Source: a virus
DNA: 64,000 nt
Strand: one strand, 5' to 3'
Virus record (IMG/VR): IMGVR_UViG_3300027759_000056
Coordinates: 1 to 64,000 of that record
The notes under the pieces were generated by a model. It ran no database searches. It was not told the DNA's origin and saw only the letters and a program-made list of their open reading frames with translations. Below are positions 54,198 through 60,732 of this stretch, one piece after another (position 1 is the stretch's first letter; every line of letters starts with the position of its first letter). The position numbers and the translations under genes are program-made.

Positions 54198-54329
54198 AAT
54201 TAGATGGGCGTAATGAGGGATGGTACCCGAGTCCCCAAGATTGGAGGTCACCAGTAATAGGTGGCCGTTGCGTCGTAAGGTTGTCTAATCCGTCCTGAAC
54301 GGTATTCGGTTCGAGTCCGACTCTAATTA
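54198..54329 (+). ncRNA. Expanded tRNA-like RNA 1 (132 nt)
   Basis: AATTAGA pairs perfectly with TCTAATT, the T-arm CGGTTCGAGTCCG is normal, and CCGT/ACGG forms a long variable arm. Instead of an anticodon loop, GATTGG/CTAATC encloses about 40 nt with a 7-bp hairpin (GGTCACC/GGTGGCC). No U33 or anticodon is evident. Either an intron-bearing tRNA or a tRNA mimic. Confidence 0.55.
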
Positions 54330-54330
54330 T

Positions 54331-54407
54331 GAAAAACTAACCCAGTTTCACAATGAGGGCTGATACCTTCGGAGTGGGGGTGACGGTCAGGAAAGACTGA
54401 CAACCAT
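54331..54407 (+). ncRNA. Structured spacer between tRNA-like RNAs
   Basis: Contains hairpins around CCTTCGG and GTCAG-GAAAGA-CTGAC (54,386-54,401). G-rich segments contrast with the AT-rich genome. It has no frame and no T-arm. Confidence 0.35.
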
Positions 54408-54565
54408 AGTCAGGTGGCGGAATTGGTAGACGATAATGGAGTTATACTATCAAACACAGAGGGTGCGGCGTAGATGGGAACTACTACATTATCTCTTGGA
54501 CGCAAGAGAGCAATATAACCCTAACCATTTGGTATAACGTGTAGGTTCGAATCCTACCCTGACTA
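54408..54565 (+). ncRNA. Expanded tRNA-Leu-like RNA 2 (158 nt)
   Basis: The 5' part (AGTCAGGTGGCGGAATTGG) is a textbook tRNA-Leu start. The 3' part has T-arm GTAGGTTCGAATCCTAC and acceptor CCTGACT, A73. The anticodon stem AATGG/CCATT encloses about 85 nt with GTTATA/TATAAC and TCTCTTG/CAAGAGA hairpins. The insertion is too short for a normal group I intron. No U33 at the stem border. Confidence 0.6.
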
Positions 54566-54660
54566 CAAAAACATAAACTCAAGTACCCACACAGTGGTGA
54601 GACGGGCTAAGTAAGATACAATTCCTCGGAACTGGGAGTAGAGAGCTTGAGAGTGTTTTT
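54566..54660 (+). ncRNA. Structured 3' end of tRNA array 1
   Basis: CTCAAG (54,578-54,583) pairs with CTTGAG (54,646-54,651) around inner hairpins (CCAC/GTGG, TTCC/GGAA), followed by six T. It may combine an RNA element with the array terminator. Confidence 0.4.
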
Positions 54661-59931: not shown

Positions 59932-59935
59932 CCAA

Positions 59936-60150
59936 TGGATGTAACTTGGGTCGTGCCACATTGGCCACTTTTACATCAAGAGTCAGAAGGATTAGAGGTG
60001 GCCGTGACTACTCTGACTCGAATACAAAGTACCACGATGCTTACCGTAAGAACAGCACAGTGGTAGATAGAGTTAACGTGAATAACCCAAGGCATAAGCG
60101 TTAACAACCCCCAATAAGACTATTTGGCCAATAGAAACTGTTGGGGTTAT
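59936..60150 (+). ncRNA. Structured RNA A, at least six hairpins
   Basis: Successive stems: GATGTAA/TTACATC, GTGCCA/TGGCCAC, GAGTCAGA/TCTGACTC, ACCAC/GTGGT, GTTAACG/CGTTAAC, CCCCAA/TTGGGG enclosing CTATT/AATAG. There is no reading frame and no T-arm. It lies between two tRNA genes and must be co-transcribed with them. I cannot assign it to a known RNA family. Confidence 0.5.
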
Positions 60151-60155
60151 TAAAA

Positions 60156-60227
60156 GCGAGTGTAGTATAAAGGCTATTACTCCAGCCTTCCAAGCTGGAT
60201 ATGCGAGTTCGATTCTCGCCACTCGCT
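60156..60227 (+). tRNA. tRNA-Gly(UCC)
   Basis: GCGAGTG/CACTCGC, loop CTTCCAA, U73 as expected for Gly. Confidence 0.95.
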
Positions 60228-60228
60228 C

Positions 60229-60434
60229 AAAAAGAACCTTTTCTTACGGAAGTCCGATTAGCGCGGATGAAAGGAACCTTGACTTCACGGGAGTAGCTAC
60301 CCAATTGAAGCTTGAATGACTCAAGGTACTCTGTAATGGACCCTGCTCTATGGTGCACACATAACAGGTGATGGGGAACAAACCATCGGTAAAATCTAAA
60401 CCCACGGTGAGCGTGGAAGGAAAGTTTCTTTTTT
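60229..60434 (+). ncRNA. Structured RNA B with closing stem
   Basis: AAGAACCTTTTC (60,232-60,243) pairs with GGAAAGTTTCTT (60,419-60,430), 11 of 12. Inside are ACCTTGA/TCAAGGT enclosing CTTCA/TGAAG, GATGG/CCATC and CCACG/CGTGG. It ends in eight T just before the next tRNA. A ten-base segment GGGAGTAGCT is shared with the following tRNA-Gly. Family unknown. Confidence 0.5.
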
Positions 60435-60436
60435 TT

Positions 60437-60508
60437 GCGGGAGTAGCTCAGGGGTAGAGCTTCAGTTTACCAAACTGAAAGTCGAAGGTTCGAATCCTTT
60501 TTCCCGCT
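60437..60508 (+). tRNA. tRNA-Gly(ACC), unusual anticodon
   Basis: GCGGGAG/TTCCCGC, stem TCAGT/ACTGA, loop TTACCAA giving ACC, U73 and encoded CCA. Gly anticodons with A34 are rare in bacteria. Confidence 0.85.
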
Positions 60509-60662: not shown

Positions 60663-60732
60663 GGGCCTGATGTCAACGGCAGACCGTTTGATTTGCAATC
60701 AGAACGTATGGGTTCGATTCCCACAGTGTCCA
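60663..60732 (+). tRNA. tRNA-Ala(UGC)
   Basis: GGGCCTG/AGTGTCC with the alanine identity pair G3-U70; two acceptor mismatches. Loop TTTGCAA (TGC), A73. Somewhat degenerate. Confidence 0.8.

Follow-up and report, generated by a model that had tools for sequence, protein, structure and literature searches.

Two phage families of anticodon-less tRNA-like RNAs that may act as natural scaffolds for interchangeable RNA inserts

Introduction

Frames that resemble tRNA are substrates for RNase P and for CCA addition. Some viral noncoding RNAs take advantage of tRNA-like features or serve as decoys, as do the gammaherpesvirus tRNA-miRNA RNAs and adenovirus VA RNA, and phages encode GOLLD and ROOL, multimeric RNAs of hundreds of nucleotides that lie near tRNA genes. 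The structures of GOLLD and ROOL have been described (PMC12286853). Leucylation by the E. coli leucyl-tRNA synthetase (LeuRS) depends on A73, A15-U48, G18G19, A20a and contacts between the D- and T-loops; anticodon and variable arm are not needed, and a truncated tRNA-Leu without both is still leucylated (PMC9976931). This was seen with the minimal, laboratory-made tRNA-Leu variants of Larkin et al. 2002, which the E. coli enzyme charges (reviewed in PMC9976931).

Here we describe two neighboring RNAs, elements 1 and 2, encoded in a 64,000-nucleotide stretch of viral DNA (hereafter the window; positions 1 to 64,000 of IMG/VR record IMGVR_UViG_3300027759_000056, which has 111,976 bases). Each resembles a tRNA that has no anticodon, and each belongs to a large family of phage RNAs. 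The two families are apparently previously undescribed: a literature search within PubMed Central found no description of such RNAs.

Results

An original prediction, made from the letters of the window, had placed two tRNA-like RNAs with expanded anticodon arms at 54198-54565. Both lie at those coordinates (Table 1), and the frame recurs in at least 230 phage RNAs. Acceptors and T-arms, which had been called intact, are nearly so: the acceptors pair 7/7 in both elements, and the T-stem is paired 5/5 in element 2 (GTAGG/CCTAC) and 4/5 in element 1 (TTCGG/CCGAC, one mismatch). The size given for the inserts, 40-85 nt, was wrong for element 2. Its "intact Leu D-arm" is indeed of the Leu type, with A14, A15, G18, G19 and A20a all readable in the sequence, and with A73 and A15-U48 the set of LeuRS determinants is complete; position 25, however, is A (relatives L109 and L182 keep C25), so that the G10-C25 pair is lost and the arm is only nearly intact. 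Element 1 has no tRNA-Leu D-arm and carries the core of a separate family instead.

ARAGORN called 29 ordinary tRNA genes in the window and missed both elements. In a covariance-model search of the kind proposed with the prediction, run locally, the Rfam tRNA model scored element 2 at 30.5 bits, above the gathering score of 29, and did not call element 1. No other Rfam family matched the insert or element 1 above its gathering score, and the inserts therefore belong to no known Rfam family.

Table 1. Features of the two-element locus (window coordinates)
Feature	Position	Strand	Remarks
Element 1, tRNA-like RNA without anticodon, expanded member of the "GCGUAAUGAGG" family (family 2)	54198-54329	+	132 nt
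Element 1 acceptor, 5' strand, AATTAGA	54198-54204	+	pairs 7/7 with TCTAATT at 54322-54328
Element 1 core GCGTAATGAGG, hairpin GGGATGGTACCC and GAGTCC	54208-54234	+	conserved
Element 1 insert region	54235-54304	+	hairpin GGTCACC/GGTGGCC at 54246-54266; differs between members
Element 1 T-arm, acceptor 3' strand and A73	54305-54329	+	from sequence and aligned relatives
Leader-like structured RNA that lies between the elements and may be a separate gene	54338-54407	+	z = -2.07; conserved with L002
Element 2, anticodon-less tRNA-Leu-like RNA of family 1 ("AGUCAGG frame")	54408-54565	+	158 nt
Element 2 acceptor, 5' strand, AGTCAGG	54408-54414	+	pairs 7/7 with CCTGACT at 54558-54564
Element 2 U8, G9 and Leu-type D-arm GCGGAATTGGTAGACGA	54415-54433	+	from sequence
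Possible pseudoknotted helix, ATAATG	54433-54438	+	with CATTAT at 54487-54492; inferred from sequence
Element 2 insert (payload), replacing anticodon arm and variable arm	54434-54539	+	~106 nt
9-bp helix GTTATACTA/TGGTATAAC in element 2 insert	54441-54449 with 54530-54538	+	3'-terminal helix
Hairpin CTCTT-GGACGC-AAGAG in element 2 insert	54493-54508	+	predicted fold
Element 2 U48, Leu-type Levitt partner of A15	54540	+	
Element 2 T-arm, acceptor 3' strand and discriminator A73	54541-54565	+	5/5 and 7/7 pairs
Conserved noncoding stretch 3' of element 2	54576-54651	+	closed by CTCAAG/CTTGAG

The stretch between the elements folds better than its shuffles (Table 1). The stretch that follows element 2 folds no better than shuffles and is covered by a 138 bp match to L002 with 98% identity. 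Further along the window, a noncoding stretch of some 200 nt that seems to be structured and contains several inverted repeats (59934-60155) lies between tRNA-Met and tRNA-Gly. A freshwater-1 RNA motif (Rfam RF02979, 73.8 bits, 60332-60394) sits inside a bigger noncoding stretch between two tRNA-Gly genes (60216-60437), which a long terminal helix seems to close. At 60663-60732 a weak tRNA match (29.5 bits, poorly paired acceptor, no ARAGORN call) is perhaps a degenerate tRNA-Cys.

The frame of element 2 recurs far beyond chance. IMG/VR was scanned with a DNA pattern built on the frame's 5' half and with a second pattern in which the D-arm and T-arm were fixed and the acceptor was free, and each scan returned at least 120 stretches. 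The resulting family 1 comprises at least 230 distinct abnormal RNAs in phage contigs that overlap in origin and include near-duplicates, versus 25 normal-looking Leu RNAs. Conservation of the D-arm and D-loop is biased by the search patterns, as is that of the acceptor in the first scan; statements on U48, A73, the T-stem and the acceptor rest on positions that one scan or both left unfixed. Among the matches listed, family 1 RNAs are 70-212 nt long, with U48 in 221/230, A73 in 202/230 and G73 in 22/230. In E. coli tRNA-Ser, G73 acts as an antideterminant against LeuRS. Acceptors in the acceptor-free scan were fully paired (7/7 counting G-U) in 91 of 106 cases among the matches listed, or in 81 of these 106 when Watson-Crick pairs alone were counted, and compensatory versions included AGTCCTG/CAGGACT, GATTGAG/CTCAATC and TCCATAG/CTATGGA. 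As judged from the aligned sequences, the family 1 frame is thus conserved and covarying in its acceptor and T-arm, with a mostly Leu-type D-arm, U48 and A73.

The dominant family 1 acceptor, AGUCAGG, is common to both families. It was found on 35 of the 505 ARAGORN tRNA calls in family 1 loci, most of which proved on inspection to be family members with chance anticodons. It also occurs on a seemingly canonical tRNA-Lys(TTT) (L042, 13030-13101, - strand), and is therefore not strictly confined to anticodon-less RNAs. Two departures from the usual architecture were noted. One member (L056, 4212-4392, + strand) has an insertion of about 50 nt in the D-loop besides its anticodon-arm insert, and in three loci a second T-arm-like hairpin (GGTCGGTTCGAGTCCGATGG) takes the place of the D-arm (L080, 2774-2866, - strand; L135, 1126, - strand; L172, 479-573, + strand).

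The prediction that structured sequence replaces the anticodon loop was borne out across the family, as none of 138 members has a 7-nt loop with U33 and a Leu anticodon. Its suggestion that the expansions are small introns was refuted by two observations. In four contigs (L002-L005) the flanking hydrolase protein shares 95% identity with that of the window, and these contigs lack element 1 and carry element 2 as a 78-nt RNA with the anticodon arm ACCAC-GTAA-GTGGT, a stem with a GNRA tetraloop (the GTGA loop of L141 is likewise GNRA), so that there is no normal anticodon even without the insert. In addition, brute-force splicing, in which one loop segment was removed, gave a canonical Leu anticodon arm in 0/138 members, with 0.4 expected from shuffled inserts. 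The intron families of Rfam had no match in element 2 or in 17 loci scanned.

Inserts are far more diverse than the frame that holds them. When 235 aligned inserts among the matches listed were clustered by BLAST (an earlier clustering by global identity merged nearly all of them and was dropped), 187 types were obtained, of which 149 are singletons and 38 are families found on different contigs. To assess structure, stems were counted that are antiparallel and paired in every member of an insert family: 31 had at least one compensatory change and 6 had at least two, versus 10 and 0 in a parallel-strand control. This covers a minority of inserts, since most types are single in the sample; the clearest covariation is in L107/L195, L122/L183/L191, L143/L179/L185 and L097/L225. 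The 3'-terminal insert helix averaged 12.1 versus 9.2 in shuffles, and a crossing helix pair exceeded 95% of shuffles in 29% of members. In element 2 the 9-bp helix was matched by 0/40 shuffles, and it may form a pseudoknot with ATAATG/CATTAT, as suggested by the sequence, which is near-identical in its three copies. A universal pseudoknot is not claimed as the defining fold, because nested folds fit many inserts equally well. The shortest family 1 members, of 71-72 nt, have nothing more than a hairpin whose loop is 3-4 nt, and a large payload is therefore not essential.

The distribution of inserts points to exchange. The cassette that includes element 2 is 93-95% identical to L109 and L182 over 161-172 bp, and the rest of the 4 kb compared has only weaker tRNA-like similarity to them. 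These two loci carry the same insert as element 2, while L002 carries another one, and in L002-L005 the flanks of the window are kept around the different insert. Cassettes therefore move as units, and inserts are replaceable within a conserved neighborhood.

Element 1 belongs to family 2, defined by an acceptor, GCGTAATGAGG, a GG(N)..(N)CC hairpin, AGTCC..GGTTGYT and a T-arm, all of which it has. With element 1, the family has 57 members of 74-134 nt, and most of the 56 others come from 86 pattern-scan stretches; counts from these collection scans are lower bounds, and a few of the 57, such as L071, L136 and L089, fit the core only loosely. Compact members have 74-81 nt, and bigger ones, element 1 included, bear inserts. 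Compensated variation was found in the acceptor, T-stem and outer hairpin of compact members, among which the third pair of the core hairpin is C-G, T-A, G-C or A-T, and L020 carries AATCAGA/TCTGATT as a variant of the element 1 acceptor AATTAGA/TCTAATT. AGUCAGG is again the commonest acceptor (22/57). One insert type (CACCACGGTCCATAA...) is found in different bodies, and the L020 insert has another body around it in L089 and L106; inserts are thus exchanged in family 2 too.

Family 1 is virus-restricted: among 84,980 bacterial and archaeal species genomes its pattern occurred in 3 contigs, all metagenome-assembled. Searched against 50,697 phage records, the joined frame gave no match covering 80% of the query, and the matches listed were partial, many of them in ordinary tRNAs. 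The richest records had 11, 8, 8 and 7 matches to the 3' end of the frame, on one strand in each, and a reversed-pattern control gave 0 hits. Overall, comparison of these sequences indicates that cassettes and inserts pass between phages and that several lie in co-oriented clusters. Among the matches listed, ordinary tRNAs are absent from 52 of the 84 loci that span 10 kb or more, and ORF clustering detected no recurrent partner protein, the top gene cluster being present in 18/174 loci. A hairpin motif spotted by eye upstream (AGGARAGACT) was rejected as a general feature, occurring in only 2/235. The terminase from one locus has a human faecal phage fragment and Flavobacterium phages as its nearest relatives, from which we infer Bacteroidota hosts. 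A permuted tmRNA (RF04321, 51.1 bits) lies close to a family 1 RNA on one phage contig (L083, 1518-1779), and ARAGORN identified tmRNAs in nine other loci.

Discussion

Compensatory changes in the acceptor, T-stem and insert stems show selection at the level of RNA. We propose, with belief and doubt in equal measure, that the two families are phage-specific, anticodon-less tRNA-like RNAs that combine a frame with an interchangeable insert and thereby form a natural scaffold, in which a tRNA-shaped body probably carries other RNA functions. In the frame, the acceptor stem is stacked on the T-arm, with structured inserts in place of the anticodon and variable arms. By analogy with tRNA biology, host RNase P and 3'-end/CCA enzymes would mature and protect the RNA through this frame, family 1 would keep the determinants for charging by LeuRS, to which the anticodon arm is dispensable, and the product would be unable to decode because it has no anticodon. 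Since truncated tRNA-Leu is charged by the E. coli enzyme, family 1 RNAs are plausible leucine acceptors and are possibly leucylated like tRNA-Leu. The scaffold would display a payload of structured RNA. In the arms race between phage and host this payload would most likely serve as an effector, or as a decoy, directed at a host factor, and recombination over the constant frame would keep renewing it. That the payload is the business end is the least certain step.

A fuller version of this proposal, which we hold more tentatively, is natural tRNA-scaffold display in phages of uncultured, probably Bacteroidota-type hosts, with a universal anticodon-less, LeuRS-recognised frame and interchangeable structured payloads, several per phage and diversified by recombination across the frame, whose targets as RNA effectors would be the defences or the translation of the host. 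Some features count against a scaffold. AGUCAGG is conserved beyond the needs of pairing, which a scaffold serving stability alone does not explain, and the sequences revealed no recurrent partner protein and have G73 in 22/230 family 1 RNAs among the matches listed.

The main rival, which we consider unlikely, is that these RNAs are decoys through the frame alone, mimics of tRNA-Leu that are themselves inert and sequester a host factor acting on the acceptor arm or elbow. LeuRS, EF-Tu, a leucyl-transferase or a toxin modifying the 3' ends of tRNAs are examples of such a factor, and the insert would merely abolish decoding. Conservation of the frame and its Leu determinants, the strict acceptor sequence, inserts that vary and can be as small as a hairpin whose loop has 3-4 nt, and the charging of truncated tRNA-Leu in vitro (PMC9976931) all agree with this. 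If the frame alone mattered, however, there would be no need for inserts that covary and are common to unrelated phages.

Two further alternatives are improbable to a similar degree. Anticodon nucleases require an anticodon loop. The RNAs could be decoys for such enzymes, as the original prediction had suggested, or resistant substrates. In conflicts of this kind the tRNA arrays of phages are established targets, and one phage can carry many copies of the RNAs; but they offer no 7-nt loop to bind or cut, most of the long loci listed have no ordinary tRNA, and a decoy for tRNA-cutting toxins would therefore have to act through the acceptor arm or elbow. Decoy action alone also leaves the conserved, covarying and exchanged inserts unexplained. 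Alternatively, these could be mobile cassettes at the DNA level, with an incidental RNA fold and with constant ends that serve as sites of recombination or transposition, or decayed tRNA pseudogenes. Transfer of an entire cassette between otherwise unrelated phages, and constant ends around variable middles, are as a mobile cassette would have them, whereas the compensatory changes speak against both possibilities and the cassettes have no recurrent adjoining gene.

Miniature tmRNA-like RNAs for ribosome rescue are more improbable still. They would share tRNA-like ends, the lack of an anticodon and candidate pseudoknots, and some of the phages have a true or permuted tmRNA as well, but the 3-70 pair is U-A in 97/106 among the matches listed, not the G-U of alanine, and an ARAGORN tmRNA search of the window found none. 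Intron-containing genes spliced to a normal tRNA-Leu, as a Leu-like body interrupted at length at the anticodon position might suggest, can be dismissed almost completely on the evidence of the mini-hairpin ortholog, the splicing exercise and the intron families.

If carriage of a payload on a tRNA-like frame is correct, these RNAs are a large viral noncoding class that standard tRNA finders miss, leave undetermined or misassign, and "phage tRNA" counts, which include non-decoding RNAs, call for caution. They would be natural cases of tRNA bodies that carry other RNA structures, with many natural payloads to study, and likely a new layer of phage-host conflict.

Among known systems, GOLLD and ROOL are likewise phage noncoding RNAs found by tRNA genes; they are much larger and multimeric, and neither has an Rfam match in elements 1 and 2 or the scanned loci. 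The gammaherpesvirus tRNA-miRNA RNAs and adenovirus VA RNA, compared here by description, are eukaryotic and have another architecture. tmRNA (ssrA) shares a tRNA-like acceptor and T-arm, the lack of an anticodon, a replaced interior and pseudoknots (here only candidates), but has the alanine identity pair G3-U70, a reading frame and more than 300 nt, whereas family 1 has U3-A70 and is much shorter. Bacterial class II tRNA-Leu is like family 1 in the type of D-arm, A14, A15-U48, G18G19, A20a, A73, the T-arm and a 7-pair acceptor stem. It differs in that family 1, at 70-212 nt among the matches listed, has no anticodon arm, a replaced variable arm and presumably no decoding role, and in that the family 1 acceptor is mostly AGUCAGG, whereas ordinary Leu tRNAs in the same loci mostly begin with GCC or GCT. 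The minimal tRNA-Leu variants of Larkin et al. 2002 (reviewed in PMC9976931) also dispense with the anticodon and variable arms and keep A73 and the D/T-loop contacts, but are artificial and carry no payload. In the engineered tRNA scaffold for recombinant RNA (PMC3753655), a foreign structured RNA is likewise placed on a tRNA body; the phage RNAs, in contrast, are natural, Leu-based, phage-borne and exchanged, and carry very many payloads.
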